NCBI GenBank assembly: GCA_900197615.1
Contig: FZLR01000001.1
Location: 1 to 64,000, forward strand
From: Rhodospirillaceae bacterium Spongia-Bin9
GTDB taxonomy: Bacteria > Pseudomonadota > Alphaproteobacteria > Bin65
Reading direction: 5' to 3'
Length of the DNA: 64,000 nt
Made by a program: the position numbers and the translations under genes. Under the pieces are notes generated by a model. The model did no database searches and was not told the origin of the DNA. It saw only the letters and a list, made by a program, of their open reading frames with translations. Shown here in pieces: positions 1-7,741 of this stretch. The stretch's first letter is position 1, and each line of letters opens with the position of its first letter.

Positions 1-821
1 AAACCCGCCCGGGGCGCGGGCGCCCCGCCGACAGGCCCTGAAAACGGGCTCGCATTAATGCCGAGAGTGGCGCCGGCCGCCGCCGCCGCGAATAGCTCGA
101 CCATCAGCCCGACTCCGAATCCCTTGTAGCCGCCGCTCGGCAGCATCGTGCCCTTGAGCGCAACCTCGGGATCGGTCGTCGGTTTGCCGTCGCCATCCAG
201 CGCCCACCCTTCCGGGATCGCTTCGCCGCGGCGGGCAAACTGCATAATCTCGCTACGCGCGACGATGCTGGCGCTCTGATCGATCAGGACATACGCCTCG
301 CCCTGCCCATCCGGCGCCGCCACGGCGAACGGGTTCGTCCCGACGACCTTTCGGGCACCGCCGGCTGGCGCGATGGAGGCCGGTGCGTTGGTGAACCCGA
401 TCGCGAGCAGGCCCTGTTGTGCGAGCCTGAACGGGTGCCAGCCCAGAACGCCGCAATTGTAGGAATTGCGGATGGCGAGGCAGGCAATGCCCTGCTCCTT
501 CGCCAGGGGAACCAGCCGGTCGAAACCGGCATCGATCGCCGGATGGGCGAATCCGTTCCCGGCATCGGCGACCAGCGCAGCGGGTTTGGGCTGCGAGACG
601 ACCGGCACCGCATCTCCGTCTACCTTGCCGCACCGGACATGCTCGCAATAAATCGGCACATAGGGCAATCCATGCGAAGCGACGCCGTCGGCGTGGGCCG
701 CGGCCGAGGACCGGGCGACCGAGCGGGCATTGGTCTCGTTCGCGCCGGCATTCCCGAGCGCGCGAAAGGCGAGGTCTTCGATCTCGCTCAGCGTCATTGC
801 AACGGTCTTGGCAGCTGCCAT
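1..821 (-). CDS. Ldh-family (malate/L-lactate dehydrogenase-like) oxidoreductase, 3' end outside window
   Basis: The first 273 codons are present; the C-terminus runs off the left edge. The sequence is typical of the Ldh/YlbC/ComC NAD(P)-dependent 2-hydroxyacid dehydrogenase family: an N-terminal helical region, the DGVASHG motif whose His (residue 50) is the expected catalytic base, and a later GGYKGFG motif. The family includes sulfolactate, ureidoglycolate and delta-1-pyrroline/piperideine-2-carboxylate reductases, so the substrate cannot be named from sequence. The ATG at 821 has an AGGAG Shine-Dalgarno 6 nt upstream; an internal ATG (residue 9) is less well placed. It is the last visible gene of a minus-strand run behind a DUF3726 gene, 20 nt apart. 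Family assignment is firm, substrate unknown. Confidence 0.85.
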   Translation of the reverse strand, partial: MAAAKTVAMTLSEIEDLAFRALGNAGANETNARSVARSSAAAHADGVASHGLPYVPIYCEHVRCGKVDGDAVPVVSQPKPAALVADAGNGFAHPAIDAGFDRLVPLAKEQGIACLAIRNSYNCGVLGWHPFRLAQQGLLAIGFTNAPASIAPAGGARKVVGTNPFAVAAPDGQGEAYVLIDQSASIVARSEIMQFARRGEAIPEGWALDGDGKPTTDPEVALKGTMLPSGGYKGFGVGLMVELFAAAAAGATLGINASPFSGPVGGAPAPRAG

Positions 822-841
822 CCCTGTCTCCTGTCGAGAAA

Positions 842-1513
842 TCAGTCGGTTTCGACCAAATCGCCGCCGCCGGCGCCGCGCGCCCGCGATTCGGCGCTTT
901 CCGGCACATAGGTCCGGCACGCCCAGCGATTGAGCCGGGCAAACACCTCGTTTTCGATCGGGATACTGCCGTCCAGTTGCGACAGCGATTGCGGCAATTC
1001 TCCGATTTGCGCCCGCTCGATCCGCACGGACCCGGCCAGTGTCAAATCCTCAATCGCGCGGCAGGATTCGGCGATGGAGTCCGGTCCAATCCCGACAGCA
1101 GGCGTTTCAATCCCGAGCGACACGATCAGCCTCACGCCGTAAACCTGTGCGACGCCGGCCAGAAACGGCATGGTCAACAGCGGCCATCGGACCGCGGCAA
1201 GCACGAGCGCACCGTCGCCGGCGAAGGCAAGCGGTTGGCCGGCCCGATCCGCTACCGTCACTCCGGCCAGCAGACCGTCGATCTCTCCCGCTTCCGAGCG
1301 CCAGATCGAACCGGAGGGGACGGGAAAGCAGCACCGCCAATCCTGTTTGGAAAGACCTTCGAGCGTGCCGTGTAAAGCAGACAAGCCGGCCAGGCCCCGC
1401 GCCTCCAGCCAGCGCGCCGCCCGGCCGGCTTCGTCCGCCAGACCCCAGGGCAACCCGGCGCCGCGCGCCGCCTTTGTCGCCAATGCCTGAATTTCGTTGA
1501 GGGAACAGAGCAC
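842..1513 (-). CDS. DUF3726-type conserved protein, 223 aa
   Basis: The protein begins with a SLNEIQAL...GAGLPWGLADEAG segment and continues as a mixed alpha/beta protein without signal peptide or membrane segments. I recognise this N-terminus as the DUF3726 family; no biochemical function is established for it as far as I know. The start is a GTG at 1513, just 4 nt after the stop of the upstream 572-aa gene; longer upstream frames would run into that gene. It lies 20 nt before the Ldh-family gene, so the two are very likely co-transcribed and may act as partners. The family name is from recall; a role as an accessory to the neighbouring dehydrogenase is inference. Confidence 0.72.
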   Translation of the reverse strand: MLCSLNEIQALATKAARGAGLPWGLADEAGRAARWLEARGLAGLSALHGTLEGLSKQDWRCCFPVPSGSIWRSEAGEIDGLLAGVTVADRAGQPLAFAGDGALVLAAVRWPLLTMPFLAGVAQVYGVRLIVSLGIETPAVGIGPDSIAESCRAIEDLTLAGSVRIERAQIGELPQSLSQLDGSIPIENEVFARLNRWACRTYVPESAESRARGAGGGDLVETD

Positions 1514-1517
1514 CGGC

Positions 1518-3236
1518 TTACGGGGCGGGCTGCGGAAAGATCCAGTCGTCCGGCGGCTGGGCGTCCAGTTCGTCCGGATAAGGTGCATGGCAGAACATGT
1601 TGATGCGCAGCCACCGGTCCGATTTCGGGTCGAAATGCGTGGCGCCGAAAAAGGCGAGCTTGCAGCGCAGCAGATTGAGCGGCAGCAGGTCCGCGCCGAT
1701 CAGGTTATCGCGAATCTGGCCATAGCGCCCGAGGTCCGGATCGTAGAGGCGCCGGACTGCATGGCGGTGTTCCGGGTGGCGAAGCAGAAAATCGGCGAGA
1801 GATTGCTCCAATGGTGCACGCTGCAGATCCGCGTGGCAGGCGGCGATATCCCTGCCGGTCGCCAGCGGCAACTCCAGGTCCGCACCCGGCTCCTCCCACC
1901 GTTCGCCCAGCCGGGGCTCCAGCTTGTTGGCCGAAACGTACCAGAACCGGGCCTGGGCATCGCGGGTTCGATAGTCGGGCTCCAGCGCCCACCCGAACCG
2001 ATCCTCGATCCGTCGGAGGATCTCACCGACAGTGCCCGGCACACCGGCCGGCGCCATCTCCGCGTCGTCGATCGCCATCCGGTCCGCCAGATCGTCGACC
2101 AGATCGCCATGGGGTTCGATCAGCAACGAAACGGCCAGCTCCTGTCCTTCGAGCGACAGATTCTCTGCCGCCCAGTCGTTTATTTTGGCCCAGGGTGCGG
2201 CGGTATCCGGACCGAGACCGGCGGCAAACGCCTCGAGCCGATCCAGGTCGGCGGCCAGCCCTGCTATTTTTTCCGCCTGCAACGGGTCGGGAACGGCCCA
2301 GCCGGCGACTTCCGCTCTCGCCCGGTCGATCCATTCCCGGAAGACCGCCCGGCTTTCTTCGGGCGCCTCCGGCAGGGCGCAAACCCGGGCAAGCGCCAAC
2401 TCCCGGCATTCGATCCAACGGGCGAACAGGGCCGGATGATTGACGATGAACGGCCCGAGGCCGAGACCGGTCGAATTGCCGATGCCGAGCCGGCGCCGAA
2501 GTGCCGGGTCGAGCGGTACTGCGGTGTCGCCGCCGCCGGCCCGGGCCATGCAATCGACAAGATCGGCGACGAACTGGCGGATCATCCAGACCGTCAGCAT
2601 TTCCATACGGAACGGCCCGCCGAAGCCGGCCCGGCCGGCATAGCGCTGCCGGTCCGCGATACCGAACTTGCCGTTGCCGTAAACTGCGGTCGTCCGCATG
2701 ACGTAACCGACATCGTCGAGCCGCGCCGCGTCCGGCTGCCGCCCCGCCGCCAGGCATCCCACAACATGATCGAACAGCCGTGCACTCTTGTTGGTGCGCG
2801 ACAGGATCAGGTCGGTGTGCCGGTAGCGCCCGGCCTCCTGCTTCGGCGTATTGGCGCGCAGGCGCTCGATCTCGCCGTCGTCCGGGATGCCGTCGTACAG
2901 GACGTAGGTGGCGTCCCAGGCCTCGGCGATCACCCGGTCGGTGCGCATCGACGGATCGAGATCGTGGGCGAAACAGACCAGCGAATAGGTCCGGTCCGGC
3001 CCTCTGGCCGCATAGACCGCCGTACCGACACCGTCCTCGCCGATCTCCCAGCGGTCGTAGCCGAAGCGAAAGCCCGCGGCTGCAACGTGCCGCATCGTCG
3101 CCCTCAGGAAACTCAGCCGCGTCTGGTGGAATGCGCCAAGCCTGTCCAGGCGCATGACCCGTTCCGGCGGTCGCATGCGAAGGCTGACTCCCGTACGGAC
3201 GTCTTCGACCGGACCGAATTCTCCGAGACCGTCCAA
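1518..3236 (-). CDS. Uncharacterised conserved-type protein, 572 aa
   Basis: A long cytosolic-looking protein with no signal peptide, no transmembrane segments and no catalytic motif I can name. Segments such as TNKSARLFDHVVGCLAAGR, YGNGKFGIADR and GNSTGLGLGPFIVNHP look conserved-family-like rather than random. The frame starts with TTG at 3236, one base after the upstream dipeptidase stop (TGA at 3238-3240); a GTG and an ATG 13 and 20 codons further in are alternatives, so the N-terminus is uncertain. It ends 4 nt before the DUF3726 start. Context (dehydrogenase, DUF3726, dipeptidase homologue, FAD enzyme) points to a catabolic enzyme or an assembly factor, but I do not assign a function. 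Confidence 0.8.
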   Translation of the reverse strand: MDGLGEFGPVEDVRTGVSLRMRPPERVMRLDRLGAFHQTRLSFLRATMRHVAAAGFRFGYDRWEIGEDGVGTAVYAARGPDRTYSLVCFAHDLDPSMRTDRVIAEAWDATYVLYDGIPDDGEIERLRANTPKQEAGRYRHTDLILSRTNKSARLFDHVVGCLAAGRQPDAARLDDVGYVMRTTAVYGNGKFGIADRQRYAGRAGFGGPFRMEMLTVWMIRQFVADLVDCMARAGGGDTAVPLDPALRRRLGIGNSTGLGLGPFIVNHPALFARWIECRELALARVCALPEAPEESRAVFREWIDRARAEVAGWAVPDPLQAEKIAGLAADLDRLEAFAAGLGPDTAAPWAKINDWAAENLSLEGQELAVSLLIEPHGDLVDDLADRMAIDDAEMAPAGVPGTVGEILRRIEDRFGWALEPDYRTRDAQARFWYVSANKLEPRLGERWEEPGADLELPLATGRDIAACHADLQRAPLEQSLADFLLRHPEHRHAVRRLYDPDLGRYGQIRDNLIGADLLPLNLLRCKLAFFGATHFDPKSDRWLRINMFCHAPYPDELDAQPPDDWIFPQPAP

Positions 3237-3237
3237 G

Positions 3238-4215
3238 TCAGGCCTGCCGCGGCCCGAAGGCGCCTTTCATAAACCGCAACCAGTTGTTTCCCATGATCCC
3301 TGCGGTTTCCGCCGCGGAAAAGCCCGTCTCGCGCAGCGCCCGGGCGATGCCGGGGAAATCCTCATTGGAGCGGAACCAGTCCGGCATTTCGGGAAACCGC
3401 ACGTCCTTCACGCTTTCCGGCGGCGGCGTATTCCCGTCTTCCCGGACTCCGCTGCGCATCCACCGGACGATCGAATCCGGCTGATCCTGACACAGGTCGG
3501 ACCCGATGCCGATACGGTCCGCGCCCATCAGGTCGGCCGTGCGCGCGGCCATGTCGCAAAAACTCCGGAGGGTCGTCGCCGGCCCGTCCTTCATGTGATG
3601 GGGATAGAGGCTGAATCCGAGCATGCCGCCCGATTCGCCGAGCGCCTTCAGGACGTCGGCCGATTTGTTGCGCCCGGTATCGCGCCACGACCGGGGATTG
3701 GCGTGGGATACGACGATGGGCCGGTCCGACCGCTCGATCGCTTCGAGCGTCGAGCGCTCGGCCGAATGGGACATGTCGACGACCATGCCGACCCGGTTCA
3801 TCTCGGCGATCGCTGCCCGCCCCTTCGGCGTGACGCCCTCGTCCATCGCCTCCTCGACCCAGCCGGTCGCCAGCGAGCATTTCGCGTTGTAGGACAGTTG
3901 CATGAAACGGACGCCGCGGTCGTAAAGATCCTCGATGCGCGCCAGATCGTCCTCGACCGGCATGCAGTTTTGCAGGCCGAAATAAATCGCCGTCTTTCCG
4001 GCCGATTGAGCGCGCAGAATATCGTCGGCCGTCCGGCCCGGCACGACATGGTCGCAAAAGCGCTCGAACAGCGCAGTCCATTCGTCCAGCCGGTCCAGCG
4101 TGCCGCGATAGTCTTCGTGATAGACGATAGTCGTGTGTACCGCGTCGACTCCGCCAGCGCGCAACTGGCGAAAAATCCTTTCGGACCATCGGCAGTACTG
4201 CAACCCGTCGATCAC
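3238..4215 (-). CDS. Membrane dipeptidase (M19)-family protein with altered metal site
   Basis: Fold signatures of peptidase M19 are clear: VDMSH (His150), VVSHANPRSW (His171) and IGIGSD (Asp240) match three metal ligands of renal dipeptidase. The N-terminal HxD ligand pair is replaced by LQY (DGLQYC), the bridging Glu of GVEGGH is Gln82 (FGLQN), and the substrate-binding His is Tyr109, so an ordinary binuclear dipeptidase site is unlikely. No signal peptide or lipobox is seen. M19 homologues occur near dimethylglycine dehydrogenase genes in pseudomonads (recalled), which fits the FAD/GcvT gene 105 bp upstream. GTG at 4215 is the only canonical in-frame start here and lacks a good Shine-Dalgarno. 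Family sure, activity doubtful. Confidence 0.85.
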   Translation of the reverse strand: MIDGLQYCRWSERIFRQLRAGGVDAVHTTIVYHEDYRGTLDRLDEWTALFERFCDHVVPGRTADDILRAQSAGKTAIYFGLQNCMPVEDDLARIEDLYDRGVRFMQLSYNAKCSLATGWVEEAMDEGVTPKGRAAIAEMNRVGMVVDMSHSAERSTLEAIERSDRPIVVSHANPRSWRDTGRNKSADVLKALGESGGMLGFSLYPHHMKDGPATTLRSFCDMAARTADLMGADRIGIGSDLCQDQPDSIVRWMRSGVREDGNTPPPESVKDVRFPEMPDWFRSNEDFPGIARALRETGFSAAETAGIMGNNWLRFMKGAFGPRQA

Positions 4216-4320
4216 GACGTCGGAATTCCGGTCGGAAACGATTCCTTCTCTCCCTTTGATGACAGTGTCCCCCGTTCCGGTTCAACCACAAGACACCGGT
4301 CCTGACAAACCGGGGGATTA

Positions 4321-6744
4321 TTAAATCCGCATCTTTTTGCCGTCGGGATCGTAGGGCGAGGCCTGAATAACGCACGCCGACCGTTCTACTCCGACGATAT
4401 GGGTATGAAGCCCGGCACCGGGTTCGGCGAACTCCGGCTCGACCAGGGCGAGCGCCAGGCTCTTGCCGACGACATGGCCGTAACCGCCCGAAGCGATAAA
4501 GCCGACGCGCCGCCCGTCGCGCCAGACCGGCTCGAAACCGGAGGCATCGGCATCGGGCGACTCGACCTCGAGCGTCACCAGCCGCTGCGGCGCGGTGTTC
4601 CTCTCCCGCTCGGCGTGCGCGGCGGCCTTGCCGACGAATTCACCCTTGTCGAAGGCGATCCAGCGGTCGAGGCCGGTCATGCCAGGAGTATATCCCTGGG
4701 TAAACTCGGCCGACCAGATGCCGAAGCTCTTCTCCAGGCGAAGCGAATTGAGGGCGTAGTATCCGTATTCGCGGATGCCGGCCGCCGCCCCGGCTTCGAG
4801 CAGCATCTCGCGCAGGGAGACATGCGCCGCCGCCGGGCAATTGATCTCGTAGCCCAGTTCGCCGGCGACCGAGAGCCGGCCGACCCGGGCCCGGACCAGC
4901 CCGACATCCATGGTGCGGCAGCTCATGAACGGCAGGGCCTCGTGGCTGACGTCTTCATGGGTCAGCGCCGCCAGGACGTCGCGGGATTTCGGGCCGGACA
5001 GGGAAAAGCCCACGGTGGCGTCGGAGATGTCGCGCACCTGCACATCGCCGTCGCGCGCCGGGTCGAGACGGTCGTGGAACCAGCGCATGTGCCATTCGCG
5101 CAAATAGTAGGAACCCATGATCCACCAGACGCCGGCGCCCCAATTGAAGACGGTCAGATCGCCCTTCAAGCGGCCGTCCGGCGCCAGCATCGGAGAGAGC
5201 CGCACCCGGCCAGCCTCGGGCAGGCGGCCGGCCATGGTCCGGTCGAGCCAGGCTTCGGCGCCCCGGCCGGTCACCTCGTAGCGCGAGAAGCCGGTAATAT
5301 CGAGCAGGCCGACGCCTTCGCGCACCGCCCGGCACTCCTCGCCGACAAGGTCGAACGCGTTGGACCGCTTGAGCGTCGGCGTTTCCACGAAACCCGGCGG
5401 CGCGAACACAAGCGGCACCTCCAGGCCCCAGCTCACGCCCCACAGGGCGCCGGCCGCCTTCATGGCATCGTGCGCCGGCGCCTTGTTGAGCGGCCGGCCG
5501 GCGGGCAGCTGCTCGTTCGGATAGGTCATCACGAACCGCCGGGAATAGAACTGCCCGGTCGTCTGGCGGATATACTCGCGGTTCGAGGCGAACGGCCCGT
5601 AGCGCGCGATGTCCATCGACCAGGCGTCAGCCTCGGGCTCGCCGTGGATCATCCATTCGGCGAGCGTCTTGCCGACGCCGCCGCCCTGGAGGAAGCCCGC
5701 CATCACACCGCAGGCCAGCCAGTAGTTCGGCAGCCCGCGGACCGGCCCGACCAGCGGATTGCCGTCCGGCGAAAAGGTGAAGGCGCCGTTCACCCAGTTC
5801 TTGACGCCGACTCTCTGGAGCACGGGATAGCGGGTGAACGCCAGTTCGAGTTCGTTGGCGATCCGGTCGGTATCCTCCTGGATCAGGTCGAAGCCGTAGT
5901 CCCACGGCGCGCCGTCGATATTCCAGTGCTGGTGGTCGAGTTCGTAGATGCCGACCAGCACGCCCTTTTGGTCCTGGCGCAGATAGGTGAAGCCTTCGAG
6001 GTCCACCGTCATCGGCACTTCGAATTCGAGCGCCTCGATCTCCGGGATCGATTCCGTCACCAGATAGTGGTGCGCGAGCGGCGAGAGCGGCAACTCCAGG
6101 CCGACCATCCGGCCGACCTGCTTGGCCCACAGGCCGCCCGCATTGACGACATGCTCGGCGAGAATCGTGCCTTTCTCGGTGACGACTTCCCAGGAACGGT
6201 CCGGACGCTGTTTCAGCTCCAGCACGCGATTGTGCTCGATCACCGTGGCGCCCCGCTTGCGCGCCGCACCGGCATAGGCGTGGACCGTGCCGGTGGTGTC
6301 GACATAACCTTCCCGGTCGGCCCACAGGCCGCCGATCACGCCGTCGACATCCATGATCGGGCAGCGTTCTCCGATCTCGGCCGGCGTCATCAGATGGCAG
6401 TCTTCGATGCCGATGGTCTGGAAGATGCGGTAGGCACTCTGGAGCCATTCCCAGCGCGCCGGCTCCGAAGCGACCGTGATGCCGCCGGTCATGTGGAGCC
6501 CGATATCCTGGCCGGATTCCGGGCCGATCTCGCGTAGCAGGTCGATGGTGTAGGCCTGAAGTGCGGCCATGTTCGGATCGGCGTTGAGCGCATGGATGCC
6601 GCCGGCGGCATGCCAGGACGATCCGGCGGTCAGTACCGAGCGCTCGACCAGCGCAACATCGGTCCAGCCGAACTTCGCCAGGTGGTACAGGACCGAAGCA
6701 CCGACCACGCCGCCGCCGATCACCACAACCCGATATCGGTCCAT
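4321..6744 (-). CDS. FAD-dependent oxidoreductase with GcvT domain (dimethylglycine/sarcosine dehydrogenase-like), 807 aa
   Basis: The N-terminal half is a DAO-type flavoprotein: a Rossmann VVVIGGGVVGASVLYHL motif at residues 6-22, then SSWHAAGG, the region whose His carries covalent FAD in dimethylglycine/sarcosine dehydrogenases. The C-terminal half (from about residue 430) is a GcvT/aminomethyltransferase-like folate domain, with RLEKSFGIW and PGMTGLDR typical of this class. The likely reaction is oxidative N-demethylation of a methylated amino acid with one-carbon transfer to tetrahydrofolate. The ATG at 6744 follows a GGGAGAGGAAAG Shine-Dalgarno. It is probably the first gene of the minus-strand run that continues with the dipeptidase homologue. 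The exact substrate (dimethylglycine, sarcosine, N-methylproline or other) is not decidable. Confidence 0.9.
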   Translation of the reverse strand: MDRYRVVVIGGGVVGASVLYHLAKFGWTDVALVERSVLTAGSSWHAAGGIHALNADPNMAALQAYTIDLLREIGPESGQDIGLHMTGGITVASEPARWEWLQSAYRIFQTIGIEDCHLMTPAEIGERCPIMDVDGVIGGLWADREGYVDTTGTVHAYAGAARKRGATVIEHNRVLELKQRPDRSWEVVTEKGTILAEHVVNAGGLWAKQVGRMVGLELPLSPLAHHYLVTESIPEIEALEFEVPMTVDLEGFTYLRQDQKGVLVGIYELDHQHWNIDGAPWDYGFDLIQEDTDRIANELELAFTRYPVLQRVGVKNWVNGAFTFSPDGNPLVGPVRGLPNYWLACGVMAGFLQGGGVGKTLAEWMIHGEPEADAWSMDIARYGPFASNREYIRQTTGQFYSRRFVMTYPNEQLPAGRPLNKAPAHDAMKAAGALWGVSWGLEVPLVFAPPGFVETPTLKRSNAFDLVGEECRAVREGVGLLDITGFSRYEVTGRGAEAWLDRTMAGRLPEAGRVRLSPMLAPDGRLKGDLTVFNWGAGVWWIMGSYYLREWHMRWFHDRLDPARDGDVQVRDISDATVGFSLSGPKSRDVLAALTHEDVSHEALPFMSCRTMDVGLVRARVGRLSVAGELGYEINCPAAAHVSLREMLLEAGAAAGIREYGYYALNSLRLEKSFGIWSAEFTQGYTPGMTGLDRWIAFDKGEFVGKAAAHAERERNTAPQRLVTLEVESPDADASGFEPVWRDGRRVGFIASGGYGHVVGKSLALALVEPEFAEPGAGLHTHIVGVERSACVIQASPYDPDGKKMRI

Positions 6745-6973
6745 TTCTTTCCTCTCCCACCGCCGCCAACCGAGGTCCGGTGTCGGTGGCCGGCTCACTA
6801 ACGGCAAATCGCTCGGCGATCCAGAGCCGATCCGGCTTCGATCGACCGTCGCCGGCAGAGTCGAGGGCGCGCGGCGATATGACTCGACCGGCTACCGGCT
6901 ATTGCGCCGCAACCCTGGCGCCGGTTTACAGTAGAGTCGCACACTCGGAAAAACCGGAATGAGGAAACTGCAG

Positions 6974-7741
6974 ATGCGTGGCCTTTCGGGAAAGACTGCC
7001 CTGGTGACGGGCGGCGGAGCGGGAATCGGGCGCGCGATCTGCCAGCGGCTCGGAGAGGAAGGGACGACCGTCGGCGTGCTGGATCGCGATGGCCCGGGGG
7101 CCGGCGAGACGGCTGACCTGATCGCCGCGGGCGGCGGCCGGGCCACAGCCTTCGAAGCCGACATCGCGGACTATGACGCCGTCGCCGACGCCGTCTCGTC
7201 ATTCGAAAGCGCAGCCGGCCCGCTCGACATTCTGGTCAACAACGCCGGCATCGATATCGCCATGCCGTTTCTCGACACCGATACCGCCCTGTGGCGCAGG
7301 ATCGTCGAGATCAATCTCTTCGGACCGCTCAACCTGCATCATATCGCGGTCCGCGGCATGGCCGAGCGCCGATCCGGCAAGGTGATCAACATTTCCTCCG
7401 ACGCCGCGCGGGTCGGTTCCTCCGGCGAATCGGTCTACGCCGCGTGCAAGGGCGGCATTGTCTCCTTTTCCAAGACGCTGGCGCGGGAACTGGCCCGGCG
7501 CAACGTGCAGGTGAACTGCGTCTGTCCGGGCCCGACCGACACCGACCTGTTCCGGACTTTCGCCGGCGACGGTGAAGCCGGGCAGAAGCTGGTTGCCGCC
7601 CTGGAGCGCGCCATCCCGATGCGCCGGCTCGGCCAGCCTGCCGACTATCCCGGACTGGTGGCCTTCCTGGCCAGCAGCGACGCCGACTTCATCACCGGCC
7701 AGACAATCAGCGTGTCCGGCGGCCTGACCATGGCGGGATAG
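6974..7741 (+). CDS. SDR-family NAD(P)-dependent oxidoreductase, 255 aa
   Basis: Classical short-chain dehydrogenase: TGGGAGIGRAI cofactor motif near the N-terminus, NNAG, catalytic Ser in INISSD, and the Tyr-x3-Lys pair as YAACK, ending with the usual VSGGLTMAG. Length is normal for a single-domain SDR of the FabG/3-hydroxyacyl or 2-hydroxycyclohexanecarboxyl-CoA type. Two ATGs exist; the one at 6974 has GAGGA 8 nt upstream and is preferred to the ATG at 6959. It is divergent from the FAD/GcvT gene across 229 bp, so the two may share regulation. Substrate unknown. Confidence 0.88.
   Translation: MRGLSGKTALVTGGGAGIGRAICQRLGEEGTTVGVLDRDGPGAGETADLIAAGGGRATAFEADIADYDAVADAVSSFESAAGPLDILVNNAGIDIAMPFLDTDTALWRRIVEINLFGPLNLHHIAVRGMAERRSGKVINISSDAARVGSSGESVYAACKGGIVSFSKTLARELARRNVQVNCVCPGPTDTDLFRTFAGDGEAGQKLVAALERAIPMRRLGQPADYPGLVAFLASSDADFITGQTISVSGGLTMAG

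Follow-up and report, generated by a model that had tools for sequence, protein, structure and literature searches.

The five minus-strand genes at the beginning of the window (the whole 64,000-nucleotide stretch of DNA analysed here) raise the question of which pathway they belong to and which compound this pathway would break down. The initial annotation had described them as a possibly undescribed catabolic operon that runs from a GcvT-type flavoprotein to an Ldh dehydrogenase. All five open reading frames are present in that order, and Pfam matches agree with the families named there, the 572-aa protein having no family match (Table 1). With moderate confidence, the locus is considered a lineage-specific variant of the operon for homarine (N-methylpicolinate) catabolism, for which we infer both the substrate and the reaction steps.

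Table 1. Features of the locus and of the related genes on other contigs of the same genome
Feature	Location	Strand	Remark
Ldh_2-family NAD(P)-dependent oxidoreductase	1..821	-	Incomplete at the contig edge; final ~70 codons lie on C51
DUF3726 protein	842..1513	-	PF12525, E=1.7e-18
572-aa protein, no assigned family	1518..3236	-	TTG start as listed
M19-like protein	3238..4215	-	GTG start; PF01244, E=6e-71
DMGDH-like FAD + GcvT flavoprotein	4321..6744	-	PF01266/PF16350/PF01571/PF08669
Upstream region of the operon	6745..6958		Divergent from SDR gene
SDR gene	6959-7741	+	Divergent from FAD gene
SABATH-family methyltransferase	G000:C51:2348-3448 (L243)		Directly after Ldh
LysR divergent from Opu-type betaine ABC transporter	L262 7433-11931 (G000:C93)		Conserved element between

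The tight packing claimed for four of the genes was confirmed by reading the gaps from the DNA. Stop-to-start distances are 20 bp between Ldh and DUF3726, 4 bp between DUF3726 and the 572-aa gene, and 1 bp between the 572-aa gene and M19. The gap between M19 and the FAD gene is 105 bp; therefore, the FAD gene stands somewhat apart from the tight Ldh-DUF3726-572-M19 block. Ldh is incomplete in the window because position 1 is the first base of contig C134 of the genome (G000; 4.06 Mb in 316 contigs), so that the assembly truncates the gene. Its codons at the window edge (~1-25) do not match those of relatives, and its C-terminus was found at the end of contig C51, where a SABATH methyltransferase gene (Methyltransf_7) directly follows. 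The Ldh-then-SABATH order on C51 is that of the relatives G185, G279, and G065, which suggests that the full unit is FAD-M19-572-DUF3726-Ldh-SABATH. The gene order recurs in G185, G279, and G357 of the same genus, although Ldh is not detectable in G357, and this repetition indicates that the arrangement is not due to chance. G357 is an unclassified alphaproteobacterial MAG and the closest named genome; at its locus (L070, 11557-13470), the SABATH gene comes directly after DUF3726. The SDR gene that diverges from the FAD gene is kept in three relatives and scored 336 bits against the model of BadH (2-hydroxycyclohexanecarboxyl-CoA dehydrogenase), below the cut-off of 431.

Conservation around the 572-aa gene was followed in the best 80 named loci, of which 54 have 7 kb or more of sequence on each side of the gene; these 54 are mostly from Rhodobacterales and hence are not independent. 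In this 7-kb range on either side, M19 was found in 52/54 loci, DUF3726 in 51, ALDH in 39, LysR in 35, Ldh in 27, and BCCT in 20, whereas the FAD gene was found in just three. These counts overturn the earlier division of the operon into a FAD/M19 pair and a separate Ldh-DUF3726-572 set. Homologues of the 572-aa protein occur in 40 of the 289 Alphaproteobacteria genomes sampled. They are also encoded on roseobacter and rhizobial plasmids, and among named organisms they extend to Alpha-, Beta-, and Gammaproteobacteria and to Acidimicrobiales (Actinomycetota). M19, the 572-aa protein, and DUF3726 together are an old module of Alpha-, Beta-, and Gammaproteobacteria and Actinomycetota. ALDH and LysR neighbours also sit on deep branches of the 572-aa tree (FastTree, with many weakly supported forks), so the simplest reading is that the window genus lost them. 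Betaine-type transporters (BCCT and glycine-betaine ABC/Opu) lie inside or beside the clusters of relatives. Literature searches on DUF3726, and on the cluster by its product names, found no description.

Homarine is an abundant marine metabolite. Its operon, homABCDER, reportedly consists of five enzyme genes and a LysR gene. In Ruegeria, Shimia, and Leisingera, the module is arranged as LysR-ALDH-M19-572-DUF3726-Ldh, a cluster that we take to be homABCDER, the gene-by-gene mapping being presumed. Named SAR116 contigs carry ALDH-M19-572-DUF3726, and the occurrence in SAR116 and Rhodobacterales agrees with the reported distribution of homABCDER. The parent cluster probably corresponds to a pathway described recently, and what is new lies in the variant, the fold findings, and the wider module. 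The term "possibly undescribed" thus fails for the parent cluster, if this is hom, and holds just for the variant of the window genus. To our knowledge, the ring-opening chemistry of homarine in bacteria has not been assigned to single enzymes. The locus resembles the homarine operon in its M19, 572-aa, DUF3726, and Ldh genes, which follow the order of the presumed hom gene set; the first three occur together, and Ldh is split between C134 and C51. LysR and betaine-type transport genes are also present in the genome, away from the locus. In contrast, the locus has no ALDH and no local LysR, its M19 is divergent, and it has extra FAD-GcvT and SABATH genes. Because ALDH, a local LysR, and the M19 signatures are absent, we treat the locus as a variant with a probably similar mode of action and not as one of the hom operons.

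The 572-aa protein has no match in Pfam, NCBIfam, or PDB sequences. Its AlphaFold2 model (pLDDT 88.9, pTM 0.91) has no fold match at E<=0.001 in the PDB or in viral models, and judged against these two sets, the protein is apparently a candidate new fold. Its true start may be further in than the listed TTG. The 572-aa and DUF3726 reading frames often share a few bases, and in Mesorhizobium sp. 131-2-1 they are fused into a single 814-aa gene (L031, 11947-14391). These overlaps and the natural fusion suggest that the two proteins probably form a physical complex.

Ldh matches PF02615 (E=5e-79), and its closest PDB entry is the Ldh_2 enzyme delta1-piperideine-2-carboxylate reductase (1wtj, E=1.5e-41), which reduces a cyclic imine with a six-membered ring. 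The AlphaFold2 model of DUF3726 (pLDDT 92) matches the same fold family, namely YiaK and type-2 malate/lactate dehydrogenases, with a Foldseek probability of 1.00 (best E=2e-4). A single hhalign comparison of DUF3726 with the Ldh profile gave E=1.2e-4, with a probability of 54 over 53 N-terminal columns. DUF3726 is shorter than Ldh, and the catalytic SHG motif (His) of Ldh is absent from it. The model suggests that DUF3726 is probably a non-catalytic relative of Ldh with a shortened Ldh-like fold.

The two-metal site of M19 dipeptidases is incomplete in the M19-like protein, where HxD is replaced (DGLQYCRWS) and the bridging Glu is changed to Gln, while both His are kept. These residues were read from the alignment to 3id7 and 2i5g and from a 100-sequence alignment. 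HxD and the bridging Glu are missing throughout the module-linked M19 family, not just in the window genus. The M19 of the window genus additionally lacks the YNNQSL, CY, and GEGS signatures, which were defined in the present analysis and not taken from the homarine paper. It differs from the family at 32 of the 168 near-invariant columns, so the substrate of the window variant may be another one; the corresponding figures in this genus are 20 of 194 in the 572-aa protein and 6 of 98 in Ldh. It is conceivable, though rather unlikely, that the variant acts on another N-methylated or N-heterocyclic betaine, e.g., a stachydrine- or N-methylproline-like one, M19 having changed with the substrate, ALDH having become dispensable, and the FAD and SABATH genes having been recruited. 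Such a shift would fit the disappearance of the three M19 signatures in the window genus, as nearly all relatives keep them, and the absence of an operon-type ALDH from the genus genomes searched. The best ALDH match in G000, G065, G185, and G279 is 33-37% identical and none exceeds 37%, while cluster copies mostly reach 56-68% identity to the query. The distant IclR triad described below, which has a different ABC transporter, also shows that the module can serve other substrates. However, the 572-aa protein and Ldh preserve nearly all invariant columns, and three genus genomes keep the hom-type LysR and Opu genes at another site, which favors the reading as a variant of the homarine operon.

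No LysR gene adjoins the window operon. The hom-type LysR of the window genome is located on contig C93 (57% identity, E=4e-105) and is the sole LysR match at E<1e-30 in this genome. It is nested among the LysRs of Opu-bearing clusters and is as similar to them as they are to each other. The Opu-type betaine ABC transporter beside it is 61/66/48% identical to a cluster-linked Opu. A conserved TTCGAATTGCTTGAA element lies between the LysR and Opu genes. With G279 and G357, where the LysR/Opu pair was also found, three of the five genus genomes carry it; the pair was not found in G065 or G185. No LysR-type box was found to be shared by the upstream region of the operon and the C93 LysR/Opu intergenic region. 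This result, the two genomes in which the pair was not found, and the genomes that lack the FAD gene (G065) or Ldh (G357) at the locus count against the homarine reading.

The SABATH gene also directly follows Ldh in L036, L037, and L038. It is present in 13 of 385 class genomes, and 11 of these 13 also carry the 572-aa gene. Outside the genus, the 572-aa gene occurs in 4/5 SABATH genomes compared with 32/280 others (p=0.001, kinship ignored). SABATH neighbourhoods elsewhere have no constant partner gene. In the Ancylobacter tetraedralis cluster (L121), M19 is also without the GEGS loop, and a SABATH gene (49% identity) lies nearby.

The FAD protein has the whole domain order of DMGDH (DAO, FAO_M, GCV_T, and GCV_T_C). 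It matches rat and human DMGDH at E~1e-157 and keeps the positions of the covalent-FAD His and of the active-site His and Tyr, whose roles are taken from the DMGO literature. Its sequence indicates that it is probably an N-demethylase. This likeness to dimethylglycine dehydrogenase (4pab, 5l46) and oxidase (1pj5) in domain order and active-site residues is limited to the FAD gene, which lies outside the conserved module. The gene is present at the locus in four of the five genus genomes and missing at the locus in G065, which also contradicts its proposed pairing with M19. Its orthologues (67-79% identity) are mostly found elsewhere, often beside an MttB-like gene. Outside the genus, the 572-aa gene occurs in 9/14 genomes with a FAD orthologue and in 27/271 others (Fisher p=4e-6, kinship ignored). 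The FAD gene is a later, lineage-specific addition to the module. A 75%-identity match in L115 was dropped, as it covers just 32 residues at a contig end. The window genome holds approximately ten more genes or fragments like the DMGDH-like flavoprotein, which are many N-demethylase paralogues for one genome.

The homarine operon was published in 2026 (Ferrer-Gonzalez et al. 2026, Nat Microbiol 11:1531), and Mgd is stated to take part in homarine catabolism (PMC13390433). The idea that the FAD protein is required to replace an absent Mgd was not supported, as the window genome and the three relatives searched have two sets of SoxA/Mgd-type subunits.

The locus is improbable as a dimethylglycine or glycine-betaine catabolic unit, in which the FAD enzyme would carry out the central reaction and M19 would assist it, on the pattern of dgcAB loci. 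The DMGDH-like FAD protein with its kept active site, the MttB-like genes that often adjoin its orthologues, and the M19-family gene pepD, which precedes dgcAB in Vibrio and Pseudomonas (PMC12093977), are all in line with such a role. The link between M19 and dimethylglycine that the initial annotation drew is therefore real, but it concerns a different enzyme system. DgcAB belongs to another enzyme family than the DAO-GcvT enzyme of the window, and the M19 gene of the window has no dgcA, dgcB, or ETF gene beside it. The 572-aa protein, DUF3726, and Ldh are not described at the dgcAB loci (PMC12093977). They have no known role in dimethylglycine breakdown, and most relatives conserve the module without the FAD gene. 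Dimethylglycine is thus largely refuted as the target of the module and is possible for the FAD gene alone. The idea of a chance neighbourhood of unrelated metabolic genes can be dismissed almost entirely. The FAD and SDR genes do differ between species, but the 1-20 bp gaps, the conservation in 51-52 of 54 loci, and the natural gene fusion argue against it and refute it for M19-572-DUF3726.

The proposal of a catabolic unit for an N-methylated cyclic amino or imino acid was borne out in part. The betaine transporters near the clusters and the likeness of Ldh to a piperideine reductase support it, but the FAD enzyme is not part of the core. From its sequences, the unit is probably catabolic, with a substrate of this kind. 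As a variant of the homarine operon, it would act on a zwitterionic N-methyl heterocycle imported by the Opu-type ABC transporter on contig C93, beside the hom-type LysR. Activation and opening of the ring would fall to the probable complex of the 572-aa protein and DUF3726, acting with the M19-like protein, whose two-metal site is not the usual one. An NAD(P)H-linked reaction of Ldh may follow, with a cyclic imine or an oxo/hydroxy acid as the intermediate acted on. In the window genus, the DMGDH-like flavoprotein would then demethylate the N-methyl amino acid so formed and pass the methyl group to tetrahydrofolate, giving methylene-tetrahydrofolate. The parent pathway presumably demethylates via N-methylglutamate dehydrogenase, and a route from homarine to N-methylglutamate would demand the loss of one carbon besides the methyl group. 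The order of these steps is likewise a proposal.

The module extends to a more distant version. Clusters of the type IclR-572-(~235 aa)-M19-ABC are found in Alloyangia, Sinorhizobium, and Aminobacter (L265, L266, and L267), and no description of them was found in the literature, as far as searched. They carry distant homologues of all three triad proteins, including a 572-aa homologue of ~30-33% identity and an M19-like protein without HxD, which largely keeps YNNQSL, CY, and GEGS even at ~30% identity. The ~235-aa protein matched DUF3726 in hhalign at E=2.3e-5 (three sequences only), and that of S. meliloti gave a sub-threshold Ldh_2 match (E=0.025). In contrast, their regulator, their ABC transporter, and their downstream enzymes, such as RidA or aminotransferases, are unlike those of hom-type clusters. 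Because the distant triads share all three components, a 572-aa protein, a small Ldh-like subunit, and a metal-poor M19 apparently make up a re-usable three-part module. A more speculative possibility is that the 572-aa protein, DUF3726 as a pseudo-Ldh, and the metal-poor M19 form an unrecognised three-component enzyme with a new fold. In this reading, the enzyme would be combined with different regulators and transporters to handle different N-heterocycles, and the window genus would have re-targeted it to a new substrate.

These findings single out three proteins, the 572-aa protein, DUF3726, and the M19-like protein, as the conserved core of a likely homarine-type ring opening. DUF3726 gains a predicted fold relation as a shortened Ldh, and its 572-aa partner stands without a relative of solved fold. 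Lineages with an apparently re-tuned module are identified, and the comparisons among them point to the residues and genes of interest.
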